Positions 6,130-60,580 of a DNA stretch of 64,000 bases are shown piece by piece. Source of the stretch: Diprion similis (Eukaryota > Arthropoda > Insecta > Hymenoptera > Diprionidae); the NCBI RefSeq assembly GCF_021155765.1, contig NC_060106.1:2301501-2365500 (forward strand). The letters run 5' to 3'. Both the position numbers and the translations under genes were made by a program. The notes below the pieces were generated by a model. It was not told the DNA's origin. It ran no database searches and worked only from the letters and a program-made list of their open reading frames with translations. Position 1 is the first letter of the stretch, and each line of letters starts with the position of its first letter.

Positions 6130-6744
6130 ATGCGATTGAGACGATTAGAGGTAAAGAGAAAAAATAAAGAAAACAATATGGAGGTAGACTCAAATCACAT
6201 AAGTACCGATAACTTGAGCATTTTAGAGGTTAAGAGGGTAGTCGCGGAAGAAAAAAACTTGCAAAAGATAAATATTAAGACGGATTACAAACTGACACAG
6301 AAATCGAACATAGACATTTGGCTAGACTACTTGAAGTCCGAATTAATGAGTAACGATTTGAGTGACGTGATAGATGATAGCTTCAGAGGTCCGACTAATC
6401 TGTCAGAGGAGTCGGAAAACAAGAGAAAAAGTTTAGTAAGAGACATAATTATAAATCATATAGATGAGTGCTATCATAAGAGGATCCTTAATGCTAGAGA
6501 GCCAAAAGAGATTCTAGAGAAATTAATGACATTTAAGACGACAGAGCTAAACGTCACACAGACTTCTGTTAGAGCAAAACTGCACCAAATTGAAATGAAA
6601 AGAGGAGAAAAAGTAGACGATTTCTGTGAACGTTTCGAATCTATTATTAGAGAATACGGAATGTGTAAAGATGCGAACCCCCTCTCCGAACAAGAGAAAA
6701 GGGCAGCGTTTTATCGGGCCGTGGTACAAGCAGTACCGAAGTGA
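6130..6744 (+). CDS. Copia Gag, N-terminal part
   Basis: 204 codons. It contains the usual Copia Gag helical core: a W-x-x-YLKSEL segment near residue 70, an ILEKL-x-TFKT stretch, the V-x-AKLHQI-x-M-K-G repeat and FCERFESIIREY. This resembles the UBN2-type Gag core that assembles virus-like particles. The frame ends at TGA 6742-6744, while the rest of Gag continues in another frame from about 6741, so a frameshift separates core and nucleocapsid. There are many Arg AGA and Leu TTA codons, which generate frequent TAGAG motifs. Confidence 0.85.
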   Translation: MRLRRLEVKRKNKENNMEVDSNHISTDNLSILEVKRVVAEEKNLQKINIKTDYKLTQKSNIDIWLDYLKSELMSNDLSDVIDDSFRGPTNLSEESENKRKSLVRDIIINHIDECYHKRILNAREPKEILEKLMTFKTTELNVTQTSVRAKLHQIEMKRGEKVDDFCERFESIIREYGMCKDANPLSEQEKRAAFYRAVVQAVPK

Positions 6745-7655
6745 GAAACGCTGATCTTATAAGAAGGCAAACAACAAAGGAAATGAGTTTAGAGGAAATA
6801 AGATCGTTCCTTTTTCAGTTAGAGGCAGAAAAGAAAGAGGAAAATGCTGCTAGAGGAGGAGGAGGTGGGCTGCAAGCAAACAGAGTATACACAAATTCAT
6901 CAACAAATCAAGAGGAAAAATGCTACCGCTGCAGCAGGCCGGGACACTGGGCAAAAGAGTGCCCCCTAAAGGCTAAGAACTTATGGTTCTGCTATTATTG
7001 CCAAGCAGTAAAGAACCATAAGGGGTCAGACTGCACAACACAAAACGGTTACAACAAAGCCATAAACAAAAATACATTTAGAGGTAAAACTGCTCAAGAG
7101 TCGGGAAATAAGAGGGACGAGTCTAATAGAGTAAATAATAGAGGGAAAATAACGAAATTTAAGAAGGACAATAGAAGGTTGAGGAGAGCGGCCACCCAGA
7201 TGACAAAAGAGAATAACCAAAACGAAAACAAACAAGGTAAGGGTATAGCATATATAGATTTCATTGCTGATTCAGGTGCGACAGATCACATTGTGAACAA
7301 GACAATGATTCTAACCGATTTCAAAACATGCAAAAATAATGTTATTAAGAGCGCAAATAAAAACGAATTTGCAGACATTTCAATAGATGGAAAGGGAAGT
7401 CTAATATTAGAGTCGAATAGTGCAGAGAACAGTAGTTTTAAACTAACAGAGGTTTATGCAGCTAGAGATATATCAGAGAATTTACTCTCGCTAAGAAGGC
7501 TAGCTGATGCTGGATTCGGTATCTATTTGGACGATGAGACATTTAGAGTATACGAAAAGAGTACAAATAAAACTATTATGGAGGGAGACTACGAGAGACC
7601 GAACTGGGTGATTAGATTCACAGATCAACAAGCTAGAACAAACAAAACTCAGTGA
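6741..7655 (+). CDS. Copia nucleocapsid and protease
   Basis: 304 codons. Near residue 60 is a CCHC knuckle, CYRCSRPGHWAKEC, that binds element RNA, followed by a second Cys/His cluster. Near residue 175 is FIADSGATDHIV, the catalytic D-S/T-G site of the Copia aspartic protease, followed by the IDGKGSL flap-like region and SENLLSLRRLADAG, the typical end of the protease region before integrase. The frame ends at TGA 7653-7655 and the integrase resumes within 5 bp in another frame, so the polyprotein is broken here as well. Confidence 0.9.
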   Translation: MRNADLIRRQTTKEMSLEEIRSFLFQLEAEKKEENAARGGGGGLQANRVYTNSSTNQEEKCYRCSRPGHWAKECPLKAKNLWFCYYCQAVKNHKGSDCTTQNGYNKAINKNTFRGKTAQESGNKRDESNRVNNRGKITKFKKDNRRLRRAATQMTKENNQNENKQGKGIAYIDFIADSGATDHIVNKTMILTDFKTCKNNVIKSANKNEFADISIDGKGSLILESNSAENSSFKLTEVYAARDISENLLSLRRLADAGFGIYLDDETFRVYEKSTNKTIMEGDYERPNWVIRFTDQQARTNKTQ

Positions 7656-7659
7656 ATCT

Positions 7660-9147
7660 ATGTTGTGGCACATAAGATTAGGTCACGCCTCACTGGGATA
7701 TCTGAGGAAACTCCAAAAATTAGAGATAGAATTAGAGAACGTAAACTTTGACGAAACTATACTGGATTGCGAGGTCTGCATAATGGCAAAAATGAACAAG
7801 TTGCCGTTCAAAGAGGTTAGAGCAAAGACACAAAGGCTTTTCCAAATAATACACACAGATATTATGGGTCCAATTAAGCCGACTTCGTATCCGGGTAATA
7901 AGAGGTTCATAGTAGTATTCGTAGACGAATATTCTAGATGAGCAAAAGCATACCCACTAAAATCAAAAGAGGAAGCAGGAGACGCGCCAGAGAGTTTCTT
8001 AATATCTGGAGGGAATTTGCTAGGGAAAGACAAAAAGGTGTGCTATATAAAATCAGACCAAGGTACAGAGTACACGGGCGGAAAATTCTTAGAGATACTT
8101 AAGAGGGAGAAAATAGAGTCAGAGTTTTCGCACCCGTATACACCAGAGCACAATGGACTGGCGGAACGATTTAATGACATTTTGCAGAGAAAAATTAGAT
8201 CGGTAATGTTCGACTCGGGCTTACCTAAGAGTATGTGGGAACTAGCGGTGGATGCAGCAGTGCATGCCTACAATAGATCTCCACACAGTGGGATTGATTA
8301 TCAAACACCACTGAGGAAATTCTCCTTAGAAGCGAAATATCATTTTGGTCAAATCAAGAGGTTCGGTTGCATTGCTTATGTAAAGCTACCGAAGCCAGCC
8401 ACAAAGTTTGATGTTAGAGCGATTAGAGCTGTGCTGGTGGGATACAAACCGACAAGTTACGTGCTTTGGCATCCAAATTCCAGAAAATTTATAGAGTCTC
8501 GGCATGTTAGATTTAATGAGAAAATAGTCTATAAATACGTCTATAGAGAAAATCAGAAACAGGCAAAGAAAAATGACTGGAACTGGTTAACTCAATTAGA
8601 AGAAGACAAAGAAGAGCTAGAGGAAAACACAAACAAAGAGGAAAATCAGAGCGAAACGAAGAAAAGAGGCAGACCGCCGAAACAGAAGCTACAAGAAAAG
8701 TCTGAAAGCATACAACCAGCAACCGAAACTCCAAAAGAGAACAACGGAGTAACAACTAGAAGTGGATCTAAGAGGAAACAAGGAACTCAAAATAAAACAG
8801 CAAGCGCAAAACCTGCTAGACGCGTAGAGGATACAAGCTTTGCAAGATACGTTAGTATAGAAAATCAAAACGACTTGAATATAGAGGGTGAATTGGGAAA
8901 TATACTCCTTGCATCTGTAAATAGAGACCCAGTGACGTATGAAGAGGCAATGACCAGTCTAGAGAGTAGAAACTGGAAAGAGGCAATTAGAGAAGAGTTA
9001 GAGTCAATGAAAACAAATAATGTCTGGGAAATAGTTAAGAGACCAGAAATGGGACCTGACAAAAAAAACGCAACATTGTCGACTCAAAATGGGTGTTCAA
9101 GAGGAAAACAGAGAGTGACGGCTCAACTAGATTTAAAGCGAGATTAG
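7660..9147 (+). pseudogene. Copia integrase, then start of RT
   Basis: The same frame runs throughout, apart from a TGA at 7939-7941. The N-terminal zinc site is HIRLGHASLGYLRKL plus CEVCIMAK (HHCC). The catalytic core shows the first Asp in IHTDIMGP, the second in IKSDQGTEYTGG and the Glu in HNGLAERFND, giving D-D-E. A Copia GKGY-like region, a basic linker (KKRGRPPKQK) and the NNVWEIV start of the RT region follow. The in-frame stop sits where relatives read SRWAKAYPL, so Trp was converted to stop. The frame is lost near 9070, where the RT text continues in another frame. Confidence 0.88.
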
Positions 9148-9831
9148 TAATTAGAGGCTTTAAAGATAGAAATGTGTACGAGCTAAAAGAGACGCATTCT
9201 CCGGTGTCGAGACTAGCAACAGTTAAAGCAGTATTGGCAATAGTAAACAAGTACGATCTAGAGGTGATTTAAATGGACGTGAAAACGGCCTTTTTGAATG
9301 GGGAGATCGAAGAGGAGATATACATGGTTATTCCAGATGGGTTAGAGGTAGATGAAACAATAAAAATAAACAAGGTCTGCAAACTTAAGAGGGCTATCTA
9401 TGGGCTAAAGATAAGTCCGAAGAAGTGGAATAAGAGGTTTACTAAAGAGATGGTAAAACTCGGTTTAGAGAACGACCTTCACGAACCATGTTTGTTTACG
9501 TGGAGAAAAGAAAGGAAAAATGGTTGTCGTTGCACTTTGCGTTGACGATCTGCTGATAGCGGGAAACAATCAAGAGAGACTAGACGAGGTAATAAAGAGC
9601 TTATGCGGAGCCTTCGAAATGAAAAACCTGGGAGTACCAAAAGTATTTCTGGGTATGAACATAGAGAGAAATAGAGAAAGCGGAATTTTGAAAATTCATC
9701 AGAACACATACACAGAAAACATTCTAGAGAGATTCAACATGAGTGAGTGTAAACCCCAAAACACTCCAATGGTGACAAGGCAAGTAAACAACAGGTACAA
9801 AAGGTGCAAAGTAGAAGAAAAGGAGCCTGAG
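9078..9831 (+). pseudogene. Copia reverse transcriptase, 3' truncated by LINE insertion
   Basis: RT text begins with IVDSKWVFKRK and runs through FKARLVIRGF and THSPVSRLATVKAVLA. It meets TAA at 9270-9272 (relatives usually have Gln), then MDVKTAFLNG, which holds the first catalytic Asp, and AIYGLKISPKKW. After a frameshift near 9519 it continues with ALCVDDLLIAGN, the Y/C-VDD box with two catalytic Asp, and SECKPQNTPM. It stops at the LINE junction at 9831. The conserved Copia stretch around YREAIGSL-x-YLA is absent on both sides of the LINE. Confidence 0.87.
9827..9831 (+). repeat. Target-site duplication CTGAG (left copy)
   Basis: CTGAG at 9827-9831 matches 14212-14216 after the LINE poly(A). 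Removing the LINE and one copy restores an in-frame Copia reading. Confidence 0.75.
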
Positions 9832-9853
9832 AGTCCAGGGCCTGGATGGATCC

Positions 9854-10327
9854 ATGTCCGGTGGGGAACTGGCTCGCATCCTCGCTGAGCATGGTGGTTG
9901 CAAACCGGAGGAGGTCCGCGTGGGTGTTCCTAGGGGGACACCCAACGGGCTATTCAGCGTGGGGGTGCAGTGCCCGCTGAGGGCAGCTACGACTATTGCA
10001 TCGAAGGGCAAGGTGAGGATTGGTTGGGTCACAGCCAGGGTGGTGCTGCTGGATGCGCGTCCCAGGCAGTGCTATAAGTGCTGGGGGTTTGGCCATATAG
10101 GCAATACGTGTAAAGAGCCGATGGAACGCCGGGCAGCGTGCTATAGGTGCGGTACCGAAGGCCACCAGGCGCGTGACTGTACGACCAAACCTAAATGTGC
10201 GGTGTGCCAGGAGAGCGGTAAAGACAGCGCCCACAGGATGGGTTCCGGACGCTGCGCGTCCGTAGGCGAACGGGGTCGGAGGCCCGCAACTAATCCCAGC
10301 GAAAATGGCCAAGTGTGTCCAGAGTAA
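9854..10327 (+). CDS. LINE ORF1 protein, C-terminal part with three CCHC knuckles
   Basis: 157 codons. Near residues 70-130 are CYKCWGFGHIGNTC, CYRCGTEGHQARDC and a third, longer CAVCQESGKDSAH-x6-C. Three closely spaced knuckles of this spacing are characteristic of R1-clade ORF1 (Gag-like) proteins, which coat the LINE RNA. The preceding KVRIGWVTARV-type stretch also fits this family. The true N-terminus is missing. It overlaps ORF2 by 23 bp in another frame, as usual for the clade. Confidence 0.85.
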   Translation: MSGGELARILAEHGGCKPEEVRVGVPRGTPNGLFSVGVQCPLRAATTIASKGKVRIGWVTARVVLLDARPRQCYKCWGFGHIGNTCKEPMERRAACYRCGTEGHQARDCTTKPKCAVCQESGKDSAHRMGSGRCASVGERGRRPATNPSENGQVCPE

Positions 10328-13300
10328 TCTGAACCATAGTAGGGGGGCTCAGGATCTACTGAGGCAGTTCGTGCTCGAGGAAGGGATCGACATATGCCTA
10401 GTATCCGAGCCATACGTTGTCCCGGATATACCCACTTGGCTCAGCAGCGACGACGGCTTAGCGGCCATACACTGGAGGGCAGGGGGTAACGCCGGCGAAG
10501 GCTCGCTCCTTGGGAAGGGTAGAGGGTATGTGGCCGCTAAGATTGGGGACATTGCCGTCATATTGGTGTATATATCCCCGAACATACGACTGGCGGAGTT
10601 CATTGCCCACCTGGAGGACTTGGCTCGGGTGATCCAGCTGGCGGGGGACAGCGGACGGGGGGTACTTGTAGGGGGGGATTTCAACGCCCGCTCACATACC
10701 TGGGACCCTTCTTGGTCCAACCGTAGGGGAGAGCTGCTCGAGGAGTGGGTGGCATCGTGTGGCATGCGTCTCCGCAATGCTGGCAAGACGGCGACATGTG
10801 TGAGGCCACAGGGGTCGTCCGTCGTGGACCTGACATGGTCGTCGGTAAATCTGGGGCCGGTGATCTATGGGTGGCAGGTGTTGAAGGACCAGGAAACGCT
10901 GTCCGACCACCGGTACATCTTGTACAGCGTTGGCGTTCCCAGACGCGAAGAGCGTAGGAGTGGAACGAGCCATGTGCGGTGGAGTTGGTCGAAGTTCAAC
11001 CCCGAGAATTTTGCAGACGCTCTGTCCCTCACCCTCTCGTGGGGACCAGCCGGCGAGGACCACACAACACCGACGGGCCTTGCAGGGTGGATCGAACGTA
11101 GTATGACGCAGGCTTGTGAAAGCGACGCACTAGTGGAGCGAGGAGCTGGCGGATATACGCAGATCCTGCGTAGCAGCGAGAGGGCACCTCTTTAGGGGGA
11201 GAAGGACGACAGACGACCGCCAAGAAATAGAGGCCGAGTATCGAGCCGCCAAAAGAAGGCTCCGGGATGCAATCAAGGCGAGCAAGGCCAAGGCGTGGAG
11301 AGACCTCGTGGGTTCCGTGGAAGCGGACCCATGGGGTCTGCCTTATAAGTTGGTGATTGGCAAACTGCGAACCTCCCAAAAAGGGTTGACGGAGACGCTG
11401 GAGGAGGACACTCTCAGAAGTCTCCTTAATTCCCTCTTTCCAAGGGGAGACGGACGTGCACCGACAGCCCAGAGCGGCTCGCGATGGGATGAGGGATGGG
11501 CGGTCACGACGGAGGAGGTCAGAGCCGCATTAAAGAAAGGGTGCGCGCAAAGCGTCGCCCCAGGGCCGGTGGCGTAAAAGGAATTACGTGGGCCAAAGTT
11601 CCAGAGGGAATGATTAAGCTTCTAGCGAGAAACTTTACCCTCTGCCTCCAAGAAAGAACGGTCCCACGGCCATGGAGAAAGGCCCGGCTTGTGCTCATCC
11701 CTAAGGGGGGAGTACCCAGCGGGCCTCTCCCTAAGGTAAGGCCGATATGCCTACTTAGTGAGCTGGGGAAGACTTTCGAAAGAATCGTGGTGGCCCGTTT
11801 GAGGAAGTGGATTGAGGAGGACCCCCAAGCGCGCTTGTCAGCGGACCAGTACGGTTTCCGGGAAGGGCGATCCACAAACAACGCCCTGATAAGGGTGCGG
11901 CGGTTTGTGGAAAACGCCACAGAGAAAGGGGGCTACGCGGTGGCGGTGTCCTTGGACATCGCAAACGCTTTCAATAGCCTGCCATGGCCAACTATCAGCG
12001 GGGCACTCGAGGACAAAGGGGTCCCAGAGTATCTGCGGTGGGTCCTGGACTCCTACCTGTGGGACAGGCACGTGGAGTACGTGGGCAAAGACGGGGAGTT
12101 TAGGAGCCTAGCAGTGACGGCCGGGGTTCCACAGGACTCAGTCCTAGGGCCCCTTCTATGGAACCTGACGTTCGACGAGGTTTTGCGGGTGGGGGCGATT
12201 CCGGACTGCGCTGTTGTCTGCTATGCAGATGACACGCTAGTCCTGGGATCCGCAGGGGATCCATCCACGGCGGTAGCACTGGCAAACACGCTGGTAGCCA
12301 GGGTAGTCCGGCGAATATCGGGTCTCGGCCTCACAATCTCGGCCAGCAAGACCGAGGCCGTCCTGTTTGGGCGCGTGAAGAAGGGGGGAGCAGCGAACAT
12401 CCCGGATGTGAGAGTTGGTGCGGAGAGGATGCCGCTGTCGGGGTCCATGAAGTACCTGGGGATACGGCTAGACTCCGGCCTGACGTTCCGGGCACACTTT
12501 ACCTCTATGAAGGCTAGGCTTGGGGGTGTCACGAGGGCGCTGGGCAGGCTGATGCCAAACCTGAGGGGTCCATCCGAGGTCAGGCGTAGACTATATGCTG
12601 GAACCCTATTCGCGGTGATCCTATACGGCGCTCCAGTGTGGGGGGATGTGGCGGGGTCCTCGAAGCACATACAACGGGCCATTACGAGATACCAGAGGGA
12701 GATCTGCGCAAGAGTTGTTGCTGCGTATCGCACGGCCTCCTTTGTATCCGTCTCCTTACTGGCCAGGATCCCGCCGCTATATCTAGTGGCCAACGCGTAC
12801 GTGCGTACGTTTGGTAGGATACAGGAACTGCGGTCAACCGGAATGTGGTCTCCGGGCATGGGTAAGGCAGTTAGGGATGAGGAATTGCGCGTCGTCCTCG
12901 AACGATGGAAGACGTACCTCGGCAGCGCAGGGCTTCCCAGCGAGGGGTTGAGGTTGGCAATTCTAGCCAACTGGTCGGGATGGTTCGAGCGGGCGCACGG
13001 AAGCGCGACATTCCGTGTGACCCAAGTCCTAACAGGCCACGGCTACTTCGCAGATTTCCTCCGCAGAATAGGGAAGGCGGAGTGGCCGACCTGCTGGTAC
13101 TGCGGGCTGGAGGAGGATACCACGCGCCACACAGCAGAGGTCTGCCCCGCGTGGGAAGTCGAGAGGGACGCACTACGGCGTGCCGTTGGGGAAGACCTTA
13201 CCCCACCTGGCCTAATAAGGGCTATGGTGAAGTCCGGGGAGGGATGGGCGGCGGTAGCCAGATTTGCGGAGCGAGTCATGATGGCTAAGGAAAAGCGGGA

Positions 13301-13361
13301 GCGGGAACACCAGCGGGCACAGCACCGCTCGCACCGGACGATAAGGGCAGAGAGCGAGTAG
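10305..13361 (+). pseudogene. LINE ORF2: endonuclease and reverse transcriptase (R1 clade)
   Basis: The endonuclease occupies the first ~230 residues: QSNLNHSRGAQDLL start, catalytic region GVLVGGDFNARSHTWD, and the SDHRYI end. After a frameshift near 11190 the linker continues (EAEYRAAKRRLRDAIKASK), with another shift near 11570. RT then shows KARLVLIPKGG, QYGFREGRSTNNAL, VSLDIANAFNSL, GVPQDSVLGPLLWN and CYADDTLVL, the YADD catalytic box. The C-terminus has VTQVLTGHGYF and a CCHC motif, CWYCGLEEDTTRH-x5-C. In GVPQDSV the usual Gly after Gln is Asp. It would nick target DNA and prime reverse transcription from the nick if intact. Confidence 0.9.
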
Positions 13362-20591: not shown

Positions 20592-21262
20592 TTAGTTATT
20601 CTCGTCTTCATTAAAGAGAAAGCTATCTTTAATTGCGTTTCTTCTTTCTTCGCCTAATCTTTTCAATTCTTCCTCGTTTATTTCTACGACTTCTGCAAGT
20701 TCTACGTCGTTCATCTCCTCATATGCTTCATCATATATGTAGATATCCTCGTTGTCGATACATAAATTATGAAGCACGCAGCCGCTAATGATGAATTTGG
20801 AGATTTTTTCTACTTTGTGCATGTCGATTTCTAGCAGTTGTCTCCATCGTCTTTTCAGCAGACCGAATGTGTTTTCAATTAAAACTCGTGTTGCACAAAA
20901 TCGGTTATTATATTCTCGTTCGGCAGCTGTCAAAGTACCGTAATTCTTGAAAGGAATCAACAACCACTCTCGGATAGAGTAGGCGCCATCGCCGAGTAAA
21001 TGGTATGATCTTCCTAACAGTTCCGGCAATTCTTGACCTATGTCGGATAGCTTTAATACCCTCGAATCGTGAATTTTTCCTGGAACTCCTGTGAAAACGT
21101 CGATGAATCGTTTCTTACTATCACATATACCCTGCATGGTGATAGAAGGGACGTCATGACGATTTGTATATGTAGATTTCACTTTGTGGACTACACAAAG
21201 TGGTGTGGGGTGCGAATCTTAACGGACGTACCATCAACACATCCCACAACGTTGGGCAAATC
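20592..21262 (-). pseudogene. Harbinger DDE transposase, catalytic part
   Basis: The minus-strand text starts LPNVVGCVDGTSVKIRTPHH, with the first catalytic Asp in CVDGT. After a 14-bp insertion that shifts the frame (near 21183-21200) it continues with TYTNRHDVPSI, FTGVPGKIHDSRVLK (second Asp), LLGDGAYSIREWLLIPF, and VLIENTFGLLKRRWR with the catalytic Glu. The tail is acidic. This is the DDE_Tnp_4 pattern of PIF/Harbinger transposases, which cut and rejoin DNA at TAA/TTA sites. The inserted bases form a hairpin with flanking sequence. Confidence 0.88.
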
Positions 21263-30562: not shown

Positions 30563-30625
30563 GTTCGTTAACTCCGAATCGTCAATTCTTCAATCCCTAG
30601 ACTTACCTCCTTTTACATTTATACA

Positions 30626-31924
30626 ATGGCCGAAATCGCAACCCTACGCCGCAGACGTGGATCTATCAAGGCATCTATTACAAATCTAAACAAAGTGCTA
30701 GACGGTTGGGTGCGTCTAGGAGTAGCTCAACGCGATGCTGAGTACTTACAAGCATATCTAGAAGAAGTGCAAGAGGCTTTCTCCGGGTTTTCCGAAATTC
30801 AAAACGAAATCGAAAAGCTAGACGAAACCGAAACAGAAAAACGAGGCGAAATGAAAGCAAGGTTCTATACCGTGGTCGGAAGAACAAAAAAACTCTTACG
30901 CGAGCATCACGGCACGTCGTCGGACGTCTCTTCTAGGGCATCTACCCCAGCAGAGAGCTCTACACCGATCCCAGTCGCGTTACCAAAGATCGAACTGCCC
31001 AAATTCGACGGATCATCGGAGGGATGGGCTGCGTTCTATGATTTATTAAGCTGCCTGATCGACAAAAACGAAAATCTACCCGCGGTCCAGAAACTACAAT
31101 ATTTGAGATTCTCATTGACAGGCAGGGTAGCTAGTGCAATACAATCACTAGAAACTACAGAGGCAAATTACGCGGCTGCACTTCAAGCCCTGAGAAAGAA
31201 GTTCGAATGTGAACGTCGGGTCCTTCGACGTCATTGGGAGATTCTATATGAATATCCACGCTTACCGAGAGACACGTCAAGCGCGCTTACCAATCTCGTC
31301 GATACCTTTAACCAGCATACGCAAGCACTCATAAATCTAAAGGCAACCGTGGATCTATGGAACATTCCTCTCGTGAACCTAATTTCATCCACGGTCAGTC
31401 AGAATACAGCCTGGCAGTGAGAACTAACCTTAACAGACAATAAGATGCCGGCCTACACAACGCTCTTGGAATTTTTCGAGAAACGAGCCAACTGCTCTGA
31501 TTTCACATAACAGACCGGAACCACGAACGCAACCAAGAACAGCTCGCAGCGCGATCACAAGAAAAACCGAAAGGGGAAACCATCCCATGAACAGCCGCGA
31601 GCGCAAACTTTCGCTACAACGAATTCCGTAGCGTGTCCAATCTGCAATGAGGAACATCGCATATACACGTGCGATCGTTTTCGCGCCTTGTCAGTCGACG
31701 ACAAGTGGAAAGCAGGCAGTGATGCTTCACTTTGCACTAATTGCCTTGAAAAGGGTCATTCGAATAAACAATGCAAGACAGAACGTACTTGCCACACTTG
31801 TCGTAAGCGGCATCACACCTTCCTGCATAAAAATAAACCGGCAGGTAACCAACAAGCGGCTGGCCAGCCAAATCCTTCAACTAGTCAACCGCTGTCCGAA
31901 GACTCAACGGTAGCGAAAGCATGA
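30626..31924 (+). pseudogene. BEL/Pao Gag
   Basis: 264 intact codons from ATG 30626 start LRRRRGSIKASITNLNKVLD, then a coiled region. The DUF1759-like core follows: LPKIELPKFDGSSEGWAAFY, QKLQYLRFSLTG, ALQALRKKFECERRVLRRHW. After TGA 31418-31420 and further stops come the zinc-knuckle block CPICNEEHRIYTCDRF, CTNCLEKGHSNKQC and CHTCRKRHHTFLH, typical of BEL Gag. It would form the particle shell and bind RNA. Confidence 0.85.
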
Positions 31925-49635: not shown

Positions 49636-49671
49636 AAGGAGGTAAAACGGGTGATTTTACCCTTTGTAACA
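49636..49671 (-). repeat. Inverted 36-bp fragment of the Gypsy-A LTR start
   Basis: Perfect reverse complement of 49698-49733, the first 36 bases of the element A 5' LTR, separated from it by about 26 bp of (AT)n. The pair forms a large palindrome at the left edge of element A. Confidence 0.92.
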
Positions 49672-49697: not shown

Positions 49698-49975
49698 TGT
49701 TACAAAGGGTAAAATCACCCGTTTTACCTCCTTTTCTAATGATCTAGTAGTCGGCATGTGACGCAAGAAAACTAAGTCTTCTTATGTCATCAAATGAATA
49801 AGGTTGCTGCGTCAACCGCTATTATTGTAAAAATAGTCCTGTTTCAGACTTAAAATGAGAAACACCTATTGCCATTAAAGCAATTTTCCTCCAAATATTT
49901 TACATAACGCCTTTTATTGATTCCGTTAACTAAGCTCACGTACCCATATTTTATTTGAAACACAAAACAGTTTCA
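49698..49975 (+). repeat. Element A 5' LTR
   Basis: TGTTACAAAGGG start and CAGTTTCA end, 278 bp. Near the start GGTAAAA-TCACCCG-TTTTACC forms a perfect 7-bp stem that is shared with element B LTRs with one change. Matches 60303-60580 with few differences. Confidence 0.95.
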
Positions 49976-49976
49976 C

Positions 49977-49995
49977 TGGTGTCAGAATCGGGATT
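49977..49995 (+). promoter_or_regulatory. Element A primer-binding site
   Basis: TGGTGTCAGAATCGGGATT starts one base after the LTR. The identical start follows the element B LTR (55627 onward). I do not assign the primer tRNA. Confidence 0.7.
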
Positions 49996-50036
49996 TTGAG
50001 CTTTTCTTTCGTGAATCAATTCAGTGCGTGATTATA

Positions 50037-51578
50037 ATAAGTACCAGCAGAGTCACTCGTTATCGTCGCCGGGAAAGCTGCGGAGACAATCCTCCTTTGA
50101 GTGATTCCCCGCGAGCCCCTGAACCGACTTCAACGCCTTGTGAGAGCCCGGTCACCCAAGCTGATCTGATGAAGATCATCCATCATCAGCAAGAGGCTGC
50201 CGCTCTTCAACAAGAGACCGCTGCCCACCAACATCAGCAGCTTCTTCAAATTCTCCAGGAACAACAAGAACAACGTCGACTGGATCGCGAGGCCCAGACA
50301 TACTCAGAAACGCAAATCATCGAGCTGTTCCAGTCCACAGTGTCGGCTCTTCAAGCTAAAAATCGAGCTCAGGAGTCTGGAGAACCGGTCGCTACTCCCA
50401 GAGTTTCCCCGATACCCACTCCCAGGATGGTTCCTATCCCGACACCCCGGACTTCTCCTCGCCAAATACTAGTAGACCAAGTTCCTCAAAATTCAAGGTC
50501 TGTTCCTTTTATTAGAGAACTTGACTGTTCTCCGATTTTGAGACCTAGAGTAATAACCGAGACCTACTTTCCCGAGCCACCATCAAATCCTGAATCTCAT
50601 TTCCCACAATTCAATCAATTGGATAATCAGAGAGTATTCCGAATCCCCTCTCAAACATGTGAAAAACCTATCTGTGCGTTAAAACCGCCTATTTTTTACG
50701 GAAAAATTCCGTGGGCTGAATATGAAAGACAGTTTAATACAATTGCTAGACATAATCAATGGGACTCCGCTATGAAAGCTCACAGCCTTGCCTCTTGTCT
50801 TAGAACGCCAGCTTTGAATGTATTGACAGCTTCATCAGAAGGAGAAATTTCTGACTTCGAAAAGCTCAGCTCCGCGTTAAAGTTAAGATACGGTATTGAT
50901 CACTTGACAAAATTATACACTGCTCAATTACAAACTAGGAGACAAGGACGAGACGAAGACCTTGCCTCTCTCGGACAAGACATAGAGCGACTGTCGCGAA
51001 TAGCTTTGCCAGACCACGAACCGTCACGTAATATTTTAGCGACACAAGCTTTTTTAAACGCTATTAACGACCCGGAAGTTAAAATGGCCGTTGGAACGTC
51101 GGGTTTAACGTCCTTACGAGAGGCAATGGCCAAAGCTCTCGAGGTGGAGGCCATGCGAAAACAATATTTTGGAGCGGGCAAACTCCGACAAGTACAGGTG
51201 GATGATAACACCTCTATAGAAAAGAGAGGTAGTCGCTCAGAAGAGACCGAGTCTCATAACCTGAAACATAATAAAAATTACAATAATAATAGAAATTTTA
51301 AAGATAAGAATAATCGCGGTTCTTCTCAGAACCACAGTAGAAGACCTCAGTACGTCAATGAGAGAGTAGACAATAGGTTTACTACCCTCACTTGCTTGTT
51401 CTGTAATCAAAAAGGCCATGACGCCAATCACTGCTTCGCGTTAAAACGCAAAACAGAGACGCAGACGCAAAGCTCAAATTCGAACGCTAATAATTGGCGA
51501 AATAGTAAAGTAGCCAGGGAAGATAGTCATCAGAATCCTAATCCCGGCACCTCGACCATGGCTGCCTCGAAAAACTAA
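50037..51578 (+). pseudogene. Element A Gag, start codon mutated
   Basis: The open frame ends at TAA 51576-51578. Aligning with element B, the B start ATG (55690) corresponds to ATA at 50037 in A, so the start is lost. An upstream GTG in frame exists at 50028. Features: Gln-rich coiled region (about residues 50-100), Pro-rich linker with TPR repeats (VSPIPTPRMVPIPTPRTSP), then the capsid core WAEYERQFNTIARHNQWD, LKLRYGIDHLTKLYTAQLQ and SLGQDIERLSRIAL, and one CCHC knuckle CLFCNQKGHDANHC. Except for the start it is intact. It overlaps pol by 37 nt. Confidence 0.9.
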
Positions 51579-54500
51579 ATTCAGATGATTTAGGAGGGCG
51601 AAAATCATCGCAGGTTGTTAGAGTAGAAAGCCCTTTTGCAATTCAGTTTTTATTAAGGAGTTTAAGACAGTCTGGTCTTTACGCACGCGGAACTGTCAAT
51701 GGCGTTGACTGCCTCTGGGTAATTGATACCGGAGCAGAGGAAACCGTTGTTCGGTCGGATCTTTTAAAATCCGACGACCAGACTGTTCCCTCTTTATCTT
51801 TGCGAACAGCCACTGGAGAGACGACCCCGATTTTGGGAGAGGTTATCGTGCAGATTAACCTCTTCGGATGTATCGACTCTCCACACAAGGTTTTTGTCGC
51901 GGATATCGAGGATGAAGGTATTTTGGGTTTAGATTTCCTCACAGCTCACGATTGCGTGATTTCCACCAAGAGGAATTCTCTGACGTCTAACAGCCGCGAA
52001 ATCCCTCTCTGCTCGAAGAAAAGAAGAGTGTATTAGACTCCTCCAAGAATACGAGAAGTAGAACTCTCCAAAGACGATCATCAAAATCTGCTCCCTTCAC
52101 ATCTAGAAAATCTTTTTGAAAAATCGTCGACCACGCTGGATTTGCAACAGAAAGAATTCTCTAAATCTGGTTTATTTAAGTACGCAGATTCTTTTGCAGT
52201 TAACAGCGGAGACAAGGGGAGATGTACGTCGGTAAAACACAAGATCGATGTCGGAAGCAATCCTCCAATTAAACAAGCTCCCTGGAGGCTCGCCCTCAAC
52301 GGCAGAGAGGAAGTAAAGAAACTCGTTGAAGATATGCTGACCAATGACGTAATCGAGCCTTCTTCCAGCCCCTGGGCTTCTCCGACCGTCCTGGTCAACA
52401 AAAAATACGGCTCCAAGCGATTTTGCATAGACTACAGGAAGCTGAACGACATATCCAAGAAGGACTCCTATCCTCTCCCCAGAATCGACGAAACGCTCGA
52501 TCTGATTGCTGGCGCGACCTGGTTCAGTACCATTGATCTTCAGAGTGGCTACTGGCAGGTTGAGATGGATCCCCTGGACAAGGAAAAGACAGCTTTCGTC
52601 ACAGGACTAGGAGGATTACGGCAATTTAAGGTAATGCCTTTTGGCTTAAGTAACGCCCCGGCTACCTTTGAACGGATGATGGAGACTGTTCTCCAAGGAC
52701 TCACAGGAAAAATTTGCCTCGTTTATTTGGACGAAATAATCGTCTTCGGGAAGAACTTTGAAGAAGAAGTGGACCACCTCGAACAAGTCTTCTCCAGGTT
52801 AAAACAAGCAGGCCTAAAGATGAGTCCAAAGAAATGCCATCTGTTCCAGAAAGAAGTCAGCTTCCTCGGTCACATAGTCTCCGCTGAAGGAGTGAAGACC
52901 AATCCCTCCAAGATCGAGAAGGTCTCTGCTTGGCCGACACCGACGAACAAAGAGCAAGTTCAGAGCTTTTTGGGTCTCTGCACCTACTACAGAAAATTTG
53001 TAAAAGGTTTCGCCACGATAGCCAAACCCCTCCATCGTCTCACAGGAATCAAGATTCCATTCGACTGAACTCCGGAATGCGAAGAAGCCTTCAAGAAATT
53101 GAAAAAAAATCTTACTTCTTCCCCGATTTTAGCCTATCCAGAGGTCGAACTTCCTTTTATTTTAGATACAGACGCCTCTTTGTCAGGGATAGGTGGAGTC
53201 TTGTCACAGATTCAGGAAGATCAAGAGAGAGTGATTAGCTATTACAGCAGAGTCCTTAGTAAAACCGAGAGGAACTATTGTGTAACTCGTAGAGAACTCT
53301 TAGCTGTTGTTAAAACCGTAGTCCACTTTCATCATTATTTGTACGGGAGGAAATTCTTGATTAGAACAGACCATGCTTCTTTAAGGTGGTTACTTTCGTT
53401 TAAATCCCCCGAAGGTCAGGTAGCTAGGTGGATTGAGAGGCTCGGACAGTACGATTTCGAAATTCGTCATCGAGCAGGTTTACAACATGGAAACGCTGAC
53501 GCTCTTTCTCGAAGACCCTGCAAAGAAACAACAGATTGTAGGCAATGTACTCGCCTTAAAAAATACAGAAATCCTCCTCCTACAATACGGAAGATTTCTC
53601 TTGGAGAAAACCTCGAAGATTGGAAAAGATCTCAACAAGAAGATTCTACTCTGTCTCAGGTCAAATCTTGGAAAGAAGCAGAAACTCGCCCAGACTGGCA
53701 AGAAATATCCTCAGCTGAGTCTGACGTCAAAATTTACTGGGCTCAATGGGACTCTATTCTTTTAATAGACGGAATATTATACCGCAAATGGGAATCCGCG
53801 GACTTGAAAGAGATCAAGTGGCAATTTTTGGTTCCCAGAAATCGAGTTCCAGAGATTCTTGCTCTTTACCACGATTCTCCTGCAGGTGGACACTTTACCT
53901 CGAATAAAACTTTAGGCAAGATACGCGATCGTTATTTTTGGCCACGATGTCGTGCCGACGTAGAAGACTGGTGTCGGAGATGTCAAGTCTGCACGTCGAA
54001 GAAAGGACCTCGAGATAAAGGACAAAGCTCTCTCCAAGTTTACAACGTGGGAGCTCCTTTCGAGAGGGTAGCAATGGATATCCTCGGTCCTCTTCCTCTA
54101 ACCTACAGTGGGAATAAATACGCCTTAGTCATCGCTGATTATTTTACCAAGTGGCCCGAAGTACCTCCACTCGCCAGTCAGGAAGCCTCTACCGTAGCTC
54201 AGGCGTTCGTAAAAGAATTTATCTGTAGGCACGGAGTACCTTTAGAAATACATACTGACCAGGGCCGAAATTTTGAGTCAAGCCTAATGAAAGAAGTTAC
54301 TCAAATTTTAGGGGTTAGAAAAACTCGCACTACTCCCCTCCATCCTCAGTCTGACGGCATGATAGAACGTCTGAATAGAACTTTGCTCCAATATTTGTCG
54401 TCCTTCGTAGAACAGAATCAGAGAGATTGGGACACCTGGATTCCTTTTTTCCTCCTGTCTTATAGATCTGCGATTCACGAGACGACAAAACAGACGCCCG

Positions 54501-54955
54501 CTTGTATGCTTATGGGGAGAAATCTTCCACTCCCGTCAGATTTAGAGAAAGGCCCTGTTCCCGTGCAAACTCAACCTCAGACAGATTATGCCTCTGGTTT
54601 ACAACAACGCCTAGAAGAAATTCATAATTTTGCAGGAGAAAGAATTTCTATAGCTTCGGATAAATTAAAAGCTCGCTACGACATACGAGCTAGAGATTTA
54701 AAATTCAATCCTGGAGGCTCTGTCTGGCTCTTTCAACCACGACGACAGAGAGGACGATGTCCAAAACTCCAACGAAACTGGGAAGGCCCTTACCAGGTGG
54801 TTAACCGAATAAACGATGTTGTTTATAGAATCCGAAGAGGCCTTCACACAAAAGCAAAGGTCGTTCACCTGGACCGGCTTGCTCCTTTCGAAGATGGACA
54901 TCAATCTGAAACAAACTCACCGAGAGCTGGAACATCTGATGAGGTTAAACATTAA
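51542..54955 (+). pseudogene. Element A Pol: protease, RT, RNase H, integrase
   Basis: The frame is -1 relative to gag and opens at 51542. Protease: WVIDTGAEETVVRSDLL, then ILGLDFL. RT: WASPTVLVNKKYGSKRFCID, FSTIDLQSGYWQ, FGLSNAPATFERMM and LVYLDEIIVFG, where YLDD reads YLDE (52733-52735). RNase H: LDTDASLSGIGGVLSQ, REL-x-AVV and RTDHASLRWLL. Integrase: an H-x-SPAGGHFTSNKT..C-x-x-C zinc region, then VAMDILGPLP, IHTDQGRNFESSL, QSDGMIERLNRTLLQ (D-D-E). Stops: TAG after RRVY near 52036, and TGA 53066-53068 at an expected Trp. The last 618 codons are uninterrupted. Confidence 0.93.
51569..51575 (+). promoter_or_regulatory. Candidate -1 frameshift site at the gag stop
   Basis: In the gag frame, G-AAA-AAC immediately precedes TAA. 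Slippage by -1 would enter the pol frame, which opens at 51542. It is similar to the X-XXY-YYZ slippery pattern with a mismatch in the first codon. Location within the 37-nt gag/pol overlap supports it; it has not been tested. Confidence 0.45.
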
Positions 54956-54984
54956 GAGGATTTCTTCTGTCGACCAAGACGAAT

Positions 54985-55275
54985 GTAACCTCTCTACCTG
55001 TCAAGTTTTCGAAAGATCGATTTTAAAAGACAATTGTTTTCTTGAAGCTTGTTGCAAATTAGGAAAATTTTCGAGACTTCGGGTCTCATTTATTGAACGA
55101 ATTCTGCTCTTCTCGTTCAAGTGTTTAAACTCAGAGTAGATCTCGTTGTTTATTCGTGAGTTTCCTCAGAAATCTCTTACACTCGGATTTGTTCCCATAC
55201 ATGAGAAGAAGAAATTGGGACTGTTCTAGAGTTGCTCAGAATTATTCTTGAAGTTCTTAAAGGATAGTTGGTTTG
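54985..55275 (+). pseudogene. Element A deoxynucleoside-kinase-like cassette, decayed
   Basis: After the pol stop, one frame reads STCQVFERSILKDNCFLEAC. E-R-S followed by an aromatic or hydrophobic position and F-x-E matches the ERS block of deoxynucleoside kinases (TK2, dNK, dCK). The following DNA aligns base by base with the better preserved cassette in element B, including the segment for DLVVYLRVSPE and, in decayed form, the EVHEDWL region, but frameshifts disrupt it. The N-terminal P-loop half is absent. The cassette lies between pol and the 3' UTR. Confidence 0.6.
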
Positions 55276-55341
55276 AAATACGCTTTATTTATCGGAATTC
55301 TTTAAATTTTATTAAATAAACAAGACTTTATAAAAAAATAC

Positions 55342-55625
55342 TGTTACAAAGGGTAAAATCACCCGCTTTACCCCCTTTTCTAATGATCTAGTAGTCGGCA
55401 TGTGACGCAAGAAAACTAAGTCTTCTTATGTCATCAAATGAATAAGGTTGCTGCGTCAACCGCTATTATTGTAAAAACAGATCTGTTTCAGACTTTGAGC
55501 TGATAACACGTTCTTTACCCCAAATACATTTTTCTCAAAGCATATTTCTCATTTAGCGCCTTTTAATTGCTCACCTAACTAAGCTTCTTACCCTCGTTTT
55601 ATTCGTTACACTAAAAAGTGTAACA
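55342..55625 (+). repeat. Element B 5' LTR
   Basis: TGTTACAAAGGG start and AAAAGTGTAACA end, so the termini are inverted (TGTTACA/TGTAACA). The first ~165 bp are nearly identical to the A LTR; the remainder differs strongly. Confidence 0.95.
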
Positions 55626-55689
55626 CTGGTGTCAGAATCGGGATTTAAAGCTTTTCTTTCGTGAGTCAATTCAGTGCGCGAATTTGAAG

Positions 55690-57252
55690 ATGAGTGTCAG
55701 TCGTTCGACCCGCTCACGCCGCCGGGAAAGTTGTGGAGATAGCCCCTCACTGAGAGGAGACCTACAAGTTCCCGAGCCAATTTTTGCGGCTCCAGAAGCT
55801 GCACCGACGGTGACCCCTGTTACAACACCTTCAACGCCCACCGTCACCGCTTTAGACCTTCTGAAGGTTCTTCAGGCTCAACAGGAAGCCACAGAGAAAC
55901 AACGTGAAGCAGCTGAACGTCATCAGCAGCATCTGATGGATCTTCTACAGGAACAACAAGAACAGCGTCGACTGGATCGCGAGGCCCAGACACGCTCAGA
56001 AACACAAATCATCGAGCTATTCCAGTCCACAGTGTCGGCTCTTCAAGCTAAAAATCAAGCTCAGGAGTCTGGAGAACCGGTCGCTACTCCCAGAGTTTCC
56101 CCGGTACCCACTCCCAGGATGGTTCCTATCCCGACACCCCGGACTTCTCCTCGCCAGATCTTTTCGGATCAGGCTCCCCAGAATTCAAGGTCTGTCCCTT
56201 TTATTAGAGAACTTGACTGTTCTCCGATTTCGAGACCTAGAATAATAACCGAGACCTACTTTCCCGAGCCACTATCAAATGCTCAACCTCATTTCCCACA
56301 ATCAAATCAAATAGATAATCAGAGAGTATTCCGAGTCCCCTCTCAAACATGTGAAAAACCTATCTGTGCGTTAAAACCGCCTATTTTTGACGGAAAAATT
56401 CCGTGGGCAGAATATGAAAGACAATTTAATACAATTGCTAGACATAATCAATGGGACTCCGCCATGAAAGCTCATAGCCTTGCCTCTTGTCTTAGAACGC
56501 CAGCTTTGAATGTATTGACAGCTTTGTCAGAAGAAGAAATTTCTGACTTCGAAAAGCTCAGCTCCGCGTTGAAATTAAGATACGGTAATGATCATTTGAC
56601 AAAATTATATACTGCTCAATTACAAACTAGGAGACAAGGACGAGACGAAGACCTTGCCTCTCTCGGACAAGACATAGAGCGACTGTCGCGAATAGCTTTG
56701 CCAGACCACGAACCGTCACGTAATATTTTAGCGACACAAGCTTTTTTAAACGCTATTAACGACCCGGAAGTTAAAATGGCCGTTGGAACGTCGGGTTTAA
56801 CTTCCTTACGAGAGGCAATGGCCAAAGCTCTCGAGGTGGAGGCCATGCGAAAACAATATTTTGGAGCGGGCAAACTCCGCCAAGTACAGGTGGATAATAA
56901 CACCTCTATAGAAAAGAGAGGTGGTCGTTCGGAAGAGACCGAGTCTCATAACCCGAAAAATAATAAAAATTACCATAATAATAGAAATTTTAAAGATAAG
57001 AATAGTCGCGGTTCTTCTCAGAACTACATTAAAAGACCTCAGTACGTCAATGAGAGAGTAGACAATAGGTTTACTACCCTCACTTGCTTATTTTGCAACC
57101 AAAAAGGCCATGACGCCAATCACTGCTTCGCGTTAAAACGCAAAGCAGAGTCTCAGACGCAAAGCTCGGATTCAAACGCTTATAATTGGCGAAATAGAGA
57201 AGTGATCAGGGAAGATAATCCTCCACAGGCAGGTACCTCTTCCAACTTCTAA
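55690..57252 (+). CDS. Element B Gag, intact
   Basis: 520 codons from ATG 55690 (chosen by comparison with the ATA in element A) to TAA at 57250-57252. It has a basic N-terminus, a Thr/Pro-rich stretch, a Gln/Glu coiled coil (LLQEQQEQRRLDREAQTRSE), a Pro-rich linker, a capsid core nearly identical to A, and the CCHC knuckle CLFCNQKGHDANHC. The N-terminal 60 residues differ from A while the rest is over 90% identical by eye. It could package element B RNA or contribute to A particles. The end of the protein lacks the A-type gag/pol overlap. Confidence 0.92.
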   Translation: MSVSRSTRSRRRESCGDSPSLRGDLQVPEPIFAAPEAAPTVTPVTTPSTPTVTALDLLKVLQAQQEATEKQREAAERHQQHLMDLLQEQQEQRRLDREAQTRSETQIIELFQSTVSALQAKNQAQESGEPVATPRVSPVPTPRMVPIPTPRTSPRQIFSDQAPQNSRSVPFIRELDCSPISRPRIITETYFPEPLSNAQPHFPQSNQIDNQRVFRVPSQTCEKPICALKPPIFDGKIPWAEYERQFNTIARHNQWDSAMKAHSLASCLRTPALNVLTALSEEEISDFEKLSSALKLRYGNDHLTKLYTAQLQTRRQGRDEDLASLGQDIERLSRIALPDHEPSRNILATQAFLNAINDPEVKMAVGTSGLTSLREAMAKALEVEAMRKQYFGAGKLRQVQVDNNTSIEKRGGRSEETESHNPKNNKNYHNNRNFKDKNSRGSSQNYIKRPQYVNERVDNRFTTLTCLFCNQKGHDANHCFALKRKAESQTQSSDSNAYNWRNREVIREDNPPQAGTSSNF

Positions 57253-57273
57253 CTCAGCAAAAAAACTCTCTAA

Positions 57274-57691
57274 CAAATTAACCTCTTAGGATTAACCTCT
57301 TTACCTGACAAAATTATGGAAACATCGATTTTCCAGCGGCGATTATTTTATTGAAGCTCGTCGCAGATTAGGATATTTTCGAGACTTTGAGTCTCATTTA
57401 CTCAGAGAGAATTCTGCTCCTCTCGTTCAAGCATTCAAACTCAGAGTAGATCTCGTAGTTTATTTGCGAGTTTCCCCAGAAACCTCTTTTGTTCGGATTA
57501 ATTCTCGTGCACGCAAGGAAGAAACAGAGATTCCTCTGCAATTGCTTAGAACTATTCATGAAGTTCATGAAGATTGGTTGATTAGAGGCACATTTTCTTC
57601 TTCACCCGCCCCCGTTTTGGTTATTAATGCCGAAACTAAAGCTAACCGAATTTACTCAGATTTTTGCATAACTATCAAAACTCGAATTTAG
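57274..57691 (+). pseudogene. TK2/dNK-like deoxynucleoside kinase C-terminal half captured in element B
   Basis: Two frames joined by a one-base shift near 57332. The first, DKIMETSIF, corresponds to the kinase ERS block (here E-T-S). The second, open to TAG 57689-57691, reads DYFIEARRRLGYFRDFESHL and later VDLVVYLRVSPETSFVRINS, RARKEETEIPLQLLRTIHEV, HEDWLIRGTFSSSPAPVLVI and NAET. In the deoxynucleoside kinase family this order is D-x-I-Y-L-R-x-(S/N)-PE, R-x-R-x-EE (lid), IPLEYL-x-x-(I/L)H-x-x-HE-x-WL, then APVLV-(I/L)-(D/E)-A, close to TK2. The P-loop half is missing, so no kinase activity is expected. The assignment is from motif recognition. Confidence 0.75.
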
Positions 57692-58563
57692 CTATTACTT
57701 AAAAAAAAAAAAAAAACTTAAAACTCAGAAGACAATTTTATCTGTTTTTCTTGTCAGTTTTTGTTTCTTTCTAGAAGATTCTTCTTGAAATCGAGTTTTG
57801 TGTCGGACCAGCTCTGATTACTTTATAATCTGAATAGAGCCACGATTGGTATTTTTCATGGTCGATAAGCGATTATTTGATTTTCACATTTTTCTAACCC
57901 ATGTGTCAGTTTTTGTCAGCACTTTTTCAGGTTGTTTTATGACGTAACCTGATTTTCCTTTACCTTCTCCTGGTATTTGAGGATGACTGAAGGCCCCGAT
58001 TTTAAAGAAACACTCAACGATAATCCAGATAAGATCGTTTATTTTCTCTTTTAAAAATAATAAAATTTATACGATCCGTGCTTTTCTCAAATTCGCGTAG
58101 CGAATTCGGATTGGTCTGCCTTCACTCACGTTTGTCCTCCCAATCTAGGGTGTGCAGTTTCCGAAAGAATTCGGGACCGGCTCGCCTCCTTTTCCTCTCC
58201 TGTTCCCGTGGTCTTTCCCCGGATCATTTTGACCAAATTTGGATTTTCCTGATTTCCGGAATTTGGAAACTGGCCGCTCCTTCGGATTTTACACGAAGTT
58301 ATACACTACACACTTTTTACACTGACCTTTGTGAAAACATGGCACATAAAATTTTGAAAATTAAGCTTAATGCTCGACTATCTGTTCAAGGCTTTCTGTG
58401 GTTTACCTTGAGACTGTGGGCAAATGCCAGATAGCAGAAAGGGAGTCTTTGAATTTTTAGAGCCACAGCTCCGACTCACCTTCGAGCGTCGTATACTAGA
58501 TCAAGATCGTTATTGTTTTAATTTGTTCGAGTCGGGACGACTCTTTTCCTCAAGGGGGAGTAG
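57692..58563 (+). other. Element B 3' UTR and polypurine tract
   Basis: Homologous to 59400-60302 of element A. It contains a conserved AATTCGC-x3-GCGAATT hairpin (about 58090-58108), a T-rich part and the purine tract AAGGGGGAGTAG before the LTR. Short frames here (58078-58434, 58424-58627) recur in A but with shifts and do not look coding. Confidence 0.75.
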
Positions 58564-58847
58564 TGTTACAAAGGGTAAAATCACCCGCTTTACCCCCTTT
58601 TCTAATGATCTAGTAGTCGGCATGTGACGCAAGAAAACTAAGTCTTCTTATGTCATCAAATGAATAAGGTTGCTGCGTCAACCGCTATTATTGTAAAAAC
58701 AGATCTGTTTCAGACTTTGAGCTGATAACACGTTCTTTACCCCAAATACATTTTTCTCAAAGCATATTTCTCATTTAGCGCCTTTTAATTGCTCACCTAA
58801 CTAAGCTTCTTACCCTCGTTTTATTCGTTACACTAAAAAGTGTAACA
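58564..58847 (+). repeat. Element B 3' LTR
   Basis: Identical by eye to 55342-55625, indicating recent insertion. Followed by ATAC. Confidence 0.95.
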
Positions 58848-58851
58848 ATAC

Positions 58852-60302
58852 ATTAAACTTAAGTTAGATTCCGTAAAGATGAAAAGAAATTTCGGTAATT
58901 TTCATTAATTCGTTTTTAACTCTCTGACAACTGTATCATGACGAAGTTTCTTTTATGGAACCAATCAGCAGACTCCCTCTGCACCTCCTACAATTAGGTC
59001 CAGGTTCCCCGGTCGTAACGTGTAACCACACTTTCGAACTTGAAGATTCAGGAGCCGGACTGCCAGAATATAGTAAAAAAAAGAATTGAAATTAGGGAAA
59101 GATCATGAGTAGATCTTAGAGAAAATAAAAAAAAACTTAATTTAGGAGGTGACACTGATAACATAAAAGACCTGGCTGTCCTTTAATGTGCGTTTCGTTA
59201 AGGAAACCACATCTCAGTTTTTCCCATTCCTCTCCGAATTTCAGTTGTACTTCCTCGGGACTTAGTTGGGAAAAATCAAAGCCAAACCTCCTCGCTAGGA
59301 CTCCGGCGTTGCGAGAAGCGTGGATTTCAGACGTCATATTTCTTCGACAACTTTTTTCACAATGGTTGTTTGAATCCAGAAATTTGTTATTTTTTTTTTT
59401 TTTTGTTTTCGAGATTGGTTTTGTTTCCTTCTAGAAAATTCTTCTTTTGGAATCGAGTTTTGTGTCGGACCGGCTCTGATTTCTTTATAGTCTGAATGGA
59501 GCCACGATTATTATGTTCATGATCGGCAAGCGATTATTTGATTTTCGCATTTTTCTAACCCATGTGTCAGTTTTTGTCAGTACTTTTTCAGGTTGCTTTA
59601 TAACAAAACCCGTTTTTCTTTTACCCTCTCCTGGAACCTGAGGATGACTAAAGGCCCCAATTTTGAAGAAACACTCCACATTAATCCAGATAAGATCGTT
59701 TATTTTCTCTCTTTCGAATGAAAATAAAATCTATACGATCCGTGTTTTTCCCAAATTCGCTTAGCGAATTCGGATTGGTCTGCCTTCACTCACGTTTGTC
59801 CTCCCAATCTAGGGTGTGCAGTTTCCGAAAGAATTTGGAACCGGCTCGCTTCCTTTCCTCTCCCTCGTTCCCAAAGGTTGAGAAGAAGCCCAAAAATCCT
59901 CCTAAGGCCACCGTCGATTTGGACTCTTATAAGAACCTCTCCTGTCCCCGTGGTCCTCTCTCCGAATCATTTTGGCTCGATTGGATCATCCTGATTTCCG
60001 AAATTTTGAGACTGACCGCTCCTTCGGATTTTACACGAAGTTGTACACTACACACTTTTACACTAACCTTTGTGAAAACACAGCACATAAAATCTTAAAT
60101 TCCGCTTAATGCTCGACTATCTGCTCAAGGTTTTCTGTGGTTTACCTTGAGACTGTGGGCAAATGCCAGATAGCAGAAAGGGAGTTTTTGAATTTTTAGA
60201 GCCACAGCTCCGACTCACCTTCGAGCACCGTCTGTTAGATCAAATTCATTATTGTTTCAATTTGTACGAGTCGGGACGACTCTTTTCCTCAGGGGGGAGT
60301 AG
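58852..60302 (+). other. Element A 3' region after the B insertion
   Basis: 58852-59390 has no counterpart in B. A 66-codon minus-strand frame there (59137-59337: LARRFGFDFSQLSPEEVQLK and more) looks protein-like but I cannot name it. From about 59400 the DNA matches the B 3' UTR, with the hairpin AATTCGC-TTA-GCGAATT near 59754-59770 and the purine tract AGGGGGGAGTAG before the LTR. Confidence 0.6.
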
Positions 60303-60580
60303 TGTTACAAAGGGTAAAATCACCCGTTTTACCCCCTTTTCTAATGATCTAGTAGTCGGCATGTGACGCAAGAAAACTAAGTCTTCTTATGTCATCAAAT
60401 GAATAGGGTTGCTGCGTCAACCGCTATTATTGTAAAAACAGTCCTGTTTCAGACTTAAAACGAGAAACACCTATTGCCATTAAAGCAATTTTCCTCCAAA
60501 TATTTTACATAACGCCTTTTATTGATTCCGTTAACTAAGCTCACGTACCCATATTTTATTTAAAACACAAAACAGTTTCA
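60303..60580 (+). repeat. Element A 3' LTR
   Basis: 278 bp, matching 49698-49975. Followed by ATATATATAT. Confidence 0.95.

Follow-up and report, generated by a model that had tools for sequence, protein, structure and literature searches.

Two related long terminal repeat (LTR) retrotransposons, A and B, lie one inside the other in the stretch analyzed here, a window of 64,000 nucleotides from the hymenopteran Diprion similis (contig NC_060106.1 of assembly GCF_021155765.1, positions 2,301,501 to 2,365,500), and both carry a sequence resembling part of a deoxynucleoside kinase. This raises the question of whether the kinase is a gene of these elements or a fragment carried along by accident. 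An initial annotation, made from the sequence alone, had assigned the cassette to the Gypsy family itself. According to our analysis, it is quite probable that a Ty3/Gypsy family captured a kinase of the TK2/dNK type and has retained it behind the integrase as a functional third gene, which may be expressed as a spliced Pol-kinase fusion and would contribute to the supply of deoxynucleoside triphosphates (dNTPs).

The kinase across the family

In B, the open frame at 57296-57691 (131 codons, none of them methionine) matched the Pfam family dNK with an E-value of 3.6e-15 over profile positions 87-182 of 203, and Drosophila dNK in the PDB with an E-value of about 5e-17 over chain residues 107-217; these values rule out a match by chance. 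The relic in A is homologous to the B cassette (BLASTN 6e-41, tblastn 1.8e-12) and was recovered when the genome was searched with an element kinase (C2:2356582-2356776, E = 9.4e-8); its open pieces, searched separately (one with X at the stops), had no match in Pfam. The initial annotation was right that both copies represent the C-terminal part of the enzyme and that both lack the P-loop half, as neither gives a near-whole-domain match to PF01712 that includes the P-loop. Its reading of an ERS-like block in both copies holds for A, which has FERS, but not for B, which has ETS in another frame. A search of NCBIfam returned nothing useful, and a single-sequence fold of B's kinase half was uninformative (mean predicted local distance difference test score of 44).

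Copies with the P-loop half, for which the initial annotation had proposed a search, are present elsewhere in the genome (269 Mb, 60 contigs). The PF01712 profile gave 62 matches, including many C-terminal pieces and three that form the host gene; 22 of the 62 cover nearly the whole domain, starting at profile position 1 and reaching 169 or beyond, and 15 of these 22 contain no stops. Absence of the P-loop characterizes the two deletion derivatives in the window and not the family. A full element kinase used as the genome query gave 88 rows, which were merged into 72 loci, one of them the host gene. Twenty loci, each spanning about 10 kb and centered on one of the best kinase matches, were read in detail. 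Clear family-type LTR pairs with 90.7-99.7% identity enclose gag, pol and the kinase in 12 of the 20, and in five of these 12, all with the kinase present, the LTR identity reaches 99.3-99.7%. In locus L039, a 380-bp direct repeat (86%) around the kinase is unlike the family LTR and was not counted as a pair. The gag, pol (1140 codons) and kinase frames are all open in three of the 20 copies, and the P-loop pattern lies within an open frame in 11.

The association of the kinase with the family was assessed by the reverse transcriptase (RT). Among 118 RT rows, not all of which are separate elements since some copies are split into two rows, 44 had an identity of 70% or more and were taken as the family; the other 74 were below 57%, and 26 of them served as controls. 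A kinase was found within 4 kb downstream of 36 of the 44 family rows, compared with none of the 26 other Gypsy rows, and within 8 kb downstream of 39 of the 44.

The open element kinases comprise 224-226 codons and have the P-loop GNIGCGKT, the ERS motif and the arginine-rich lid RARKEE. Two full-length kinases matched the Pfam dNK profile at 3.5e-41 and 3.8e-41 (positions 1-182 and 1-187), and they are much closer to Drosophila dNK (4.6e-45), with which they align across almost the whole length, than to human-type dCK (2.7e-18) or dGK (6.7e-18). The host dNK gene, which is open and lies in three pieces at C2:13551803-13552743, apparently with introns, is 38-42% identical to the element kinases, a distance that rules out accidental copying of a host exon, whereas the identity of the element kinases to the kinase of copy L024 is 63-100%. 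In an unrooted tree of 12 rows, with two outgroup rows and long branches, a branch with support of 100/100 separates the ten element kinases, taken from 16 extracted frames, from the host gene and Drosophila dNK.

Substitution patterns were compared by the ratio of nonsynonymous to synonymous divergence (dN/dS), as the initial annotation had suggested. Its median in diverged pairs (112 for the kinase, dS 0.6-3) was 0.161 for the kinase, 0.131 for pol and 0.189 for gag, and in closer pairs (50 for the kinase) 0.274, 0.215 and 0.299, respectively; the pairs are interdependent, with dS often exceeding 1 or approaching saturation, and the figures should be read as descriptive. The excess of third-position differences in the kinase is plain, e.g., 47, 29 and 97 differences at the three codon positions between L024 and L023. 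These values indicate that the element kinase evolves under purifying selection. The features by which a captured gene can be recognized, i.e., presence across the family, absence from the other Gypsy RT rows and purifying selection, were all found. The assignment of the cassette to the Gypsy family is borne out by its position behind a pol of that family, by the selection and by the distance to the host gene, and none of the findings named beforehand as contrary (no kinase profile match, absence of the cassette elsewhere, a perfect match to a host exon) was encountered.

Some further features of these loci were recorded. A 4-bp target duplication was found at nine of the 12 LTR-paired loci (ATAT in eight, ATAC in one); these duplications, at the flanks of L021-L038, and the ATAC of B point to a preference for AT-rich targets. 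In L030, L031 and L033, the frame is broken at a common place close to the C-terminus of the kinase and can otherwise still be read. In L044, an unrelated open reading frame, transposase-like by its look, lies downstream of the family RT copy C10:494431, with a kinase relic beyond it.

The junction between pol and the kinase

In the open copies, the kinase frame begins directly after TAG or AG and has no ATG before codon 68, i.e., behind the P-loop. Between pol and the kinase lies a GT...AG segment of 56, 57, 58, 64 or 65 nt, which starts with AG/GTT (the slash marking the putative splice site), spans the pol stop and ends with a pyrimidine-rich tract and AG. The AG/GTT donor was found in 19 of the 20 copies, L039 being without it; in 18 of these, its GT coincides with a boundary between pol codons (in L038 it is off by one), and in 19 of 19 the kinase frame is immediately preceded by AG, so that the segment is in phase with both pol and the kinase in 18 of the 20. 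Behind the AG, the exon-side alignment is gap-free, and the inner part of the segment is variable in length. Divided by 3, these lengths leave all three possible remainders, so that neither stop read-through nor one fixed frameshift works across the subfamilies. Removal of the segment as a putative mini-intron can join the pol and kinase frames in all of them.

A kinase that is real and under selection might instead be translated as a free protein, either through a leader splice and a non-AUG start or through re-initiation. Seven of nine copies tested have GTGAGT or GTAAGT in the leader before the gag ATG, and the acceptor AG that such a splice would use is present in every copy in which the junction was scored (19/19); yet the leader joined to the kinase gives no in-phase ATG in any of the nine, and the placement of the pol-side GT on a codon boundary in 18 of 19 copies also speaks against this route, which we consider unlikely. 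A Pol-kinase fusion from partly spliced RNA is favored, with moderate confidence, because the kinase frame has no early ATG, the segment is phase-matched and the leader splice yields no in-phase ATG.

Reverse transcription is held back when dNTPs are scarce, a weakness that hosts exploit, as in SAMHD1-type restriction. We propose that a TK2/dNK-type deoxynucleoside kinase was captured by a Ty3/Gypsy LTR family and placed behind the integrase. Translation of unspliced genomic RNA would stop a few codons inside the putative mini-intron of 56-65 nt and yield Pol alone, without the kinase; from partly spliced RNA, a Gag-Pol-kinase polyprotein would result, whose kinase could phosphorylate deoxynucleosides and so feed reverse transcription, perhaps within the particle or in dNTP-poor cells. 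The more specific idea that the polyprotein is controlled by splicing, that the kinase is packaged with RT and that the element thereby makes its own DNA precursors and is copied where dNTPs are scarce is offered tentatively. A salvage kinase in the element would directly counter a shortage of precursors, and the dNTP limitation of retrotransposons becomes testable in an animal; if true, the phase-matched mini-intron would offer an economical means of adding a domain to part of the Pol products.

Elements A and B and the derived forms

Element A (49698-60580; all features of A and B are on the forward strand) is a Ty3/Gypsy element, and B is a pol-less relative inserted within it. The LTRs of A (278 bp, 49698..49975 and 60303..60580) differ at five of 278 positions, and ATAT flanks both ends, embedded in an AT repeat. 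Just upstream of the 5' LTR, with an AT repeat in between, lies a 36-bp inverted copy of the first bases of the LTR (49636-49671), 100% identical to that of A. The gag frame (49959..51578, 539 codons from stop to stop) is supported by full-length gag matches in related copies. It is followed by pol (51542..54955), in which Pfam recognized gag-asp_proteas, RVT_1, RT_RNaseH, Integrase_H2C2 and rve, i.e., protease, RT, RNase H and integrase in the order that related copies also have; it is interrupted by in-frame stops at 52034 (TAG) and 53066 (TGA), and its terminal stop is at 54953. Judged from the GT...AG segment that other copies have, what remains of the putative mini-intron in A can be placed at 54944..54985, with a donor-like GAG/GTTAAA on a pol codon boundary, the acceptor and the kinase N-terminal half apparently having been deleted. 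The decayed kinase part, with frameshifts and several stops, occupies 54986..55289 (end approximate).

Element B (55342-58847, target duplication ATAC) has LTRs of 284 bp (55342..55625 and 58564..58847) without a single difference. Its gag (55690..57252, within an open frame at 55624-57252 with ATG at 55690) is 94% identical to that of A at the DNA level across 1276 columns; pol and the kinase N-terminal half are absent, and the kinase part (57293..57691) stands directly 3' of gag. The proposed placement of the cassette between the polyprotein genes and the 3' untranslated region (UTR) therefore applies to A and fails for B, which has no pol. A and B are also not separate insertions, B being nested in A, and both are deletion derivatives. 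About 570 bp of the 3' part of A (58848-59419) are missing in B; similar text was seen by eye in two A-type loci, L042 and L045.

The A-B pair shows no selection on the kinase, because the cassette differences are spread evenly over the codon positions (20, 22 and 15), unlike those in gag (22, 15 and 37). The divergence of the cassette (0.23) is above that of gag or the 3' UTR and not above that of the U5 and leader stretch (up to 0.30). Where the residues of the two copies differ (n = 36), B is dNK-like at 16, A at two and neither at 18. Constraint on B, as read from this closeness to dNK, was considered and dropped after the genome search. B's kinase half is 87% identical to that of L038 and 85% to that of L024, and A's 79% and 73%; the closeness of B to dNK is better explained if its half derives from full-length lineages under selection and the half in A from a lineage that decayed long ago.

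Both forms recur in the genome. The A-type copies (A itself, L042, L043 and L045) have kept pol and lost the end of the putative intron and the kinase N-terminal half, and A itself has decayed. The right breakpoint is equal within about two bases in the A and B types and lies near kinase codon 93. B-type copies have retained gag and the kinase C-terminal half, have lost pol and are presumably moved by helpers. Non-autonomous gag-bearing LTR derivatives without pol are a known class, which the B type resembles in its LTRs, gag and lack of pol and from which it differs in also keeping the kinase C-terminal half. Because the B-type junction of gag and kinase recurs in 22 of 40 scored genome matches (B and 21 further places), 13 of them at 97% identity or more, the B type appears to be a non-autonomous group whose spread is recent and presumably depended on help. 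Between B and each of L053-L056 there are 2 to 12 differences. When ten B-type cassettes that are whole or nearly so were tallied by codon position, constraint was not clearly visible within this young group; an excess at third positions emerged solely in comparisons with B-type copies at a greater distance and could be a legacy of full-length ancestors.

Copies of the family have also exchanged parts, because the kinase and pol histories conflict in places. L021 and L024 have a dS of 0.012 in pol and 0.158 in the kinase, and the kinase and pol distances conflict among L021, L024, L023 and L040, a sign of recombination exchanging the kinase module.

Alternative explanations and comparison with other mobile elements

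The view that the kinase is a fragment acquired by accident and carried without function fits the copies in the window, which are broken, lack the P-loop and show no third-position excess between them, and it fits the A-type and B-type copies in general, which move or moved with only a relic; for these two types it stands. For the family as a whole it is contradicted by the dN/dS of the full-length copies, which lies at 0.07-0.23 between diverged copies and is similar to that of pol, and the 22 near-full-length copies, most of them free of stops, also speak against it, making it very improbable. That the kinase was captured repeatedly and recently from the host gene, the selection seen being that of the host gene, has in its favor the open three-piece gene in the host genome; however, the element kinases are far more similar to one another than to that gene, form a single group and occupy the same place with the same flanking GT...AG segment, so that this explanation is extremely improbable. 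A source in a DNA virus or another animal, rather than in a host ancestor, would agree with the pairing of the host gene with Drosophila dNK in the tree, apart from the element kinases, although that tree has only two outgroup rows and long branches. The viral contig collection, searched with B's kinase half, pol and the kinase alignment, contained no relative. The genome contig collection gave no match to B's kinase half and 30 bacterial relatives to the kinase alignment, merely 23-32% identical, and a phage search with B's half gave two weak matches covering a third of the query. We regard a foreign source as rather unlikely.

Several observations weigh against a working kinase gene expressed by splicing. 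Taken alone, the A-B comparison shows neutral decay and not selection. An open pol of 1137 codons is accompanied by a mere kinase relic at C14:780456 (L042) and C3:18602774 (L043); since such A-type copies have an open pol, the kinase is therefore not indispensable. For five of the 44 family RT rows, a search extended to 8 kb still finds no kinase, and the P-loop is altered in L036 and L038. The limits of the dN/dS figures given above belong here as well. The donor GTTAGA is mediocre, with matrix scores of 2.8-3.0 (1.9 in L038, -1.4 in L036 and -0.9 in L037), and by the same matrix two conserved GT sites within pol score slightly above it. A spliced, intron-free genomic copy was not found with one pattern allowing up to three mismatches.

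In the open-access library searched, no LTR retrotransposon came up that carries a kinase for nucleosides, deoxynucleosides or thymidine; Repbase, subscription journals and preprints were outside this search, and a curated repeat entry may exist. A term search of the accessible text of PMC6338049 found nothing. The closest parallel is the captured dUTPase of the bdelloid rotifer LTR elements Juno, Vesta and TelKA and of many retroviruses (PMC5408684, in its accessible part, where the word "kinase" is absent). There, too, an enzyme of nucleotide metabolism was acquired by an LTR element and kept at the family level; the rotifer dUTPase, however, lies between protease and RT and removes dUTP, whereas the present enzyme is a deoxynucleoside kinase behind the integrase, past a putative mini-intron. 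Crocodilian endogenous retroviruses captured host mRNAs of KIT-ligand and nectin3 and, according to PMC4299795, likewise carry intronless host-type genes behind pol, with intact frames and reported purifying selection; those are signalling and adhesion genes in retroviruses, and here a Gypsy element carries the gene for a DNA-precursor enzyme, strongly diverged from its host counterpart. Ty3/Gypsy elements of orchids that bear an N6-methyladenosine demethylase domain (PMC9289625) are similar in that a functional enzyme domain was gained by Gypsy, and differ in the enzyme and the host kingdom. Among cellular enzymes, the likeness is to Drosophila dNK and animal TK2 (PDB 1j90 and 1ot3), with the P-loop, ERS and lid motifs aligned; Drosophila dNK is a cellular gene, and the element version, in those open copies that were read, lacks an ATG upstream of the P-loop.

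Other mobile elements were recognized by Pfam elsewhere in the window: a Copia-type gag at 5695-9888, a non-LTR element with endonuclease and RT at 10266-13361, a DDE_Tnp_4 transposase at 20592-21218 and a DUF1759 frame of a retroelement type at 30572-31420.
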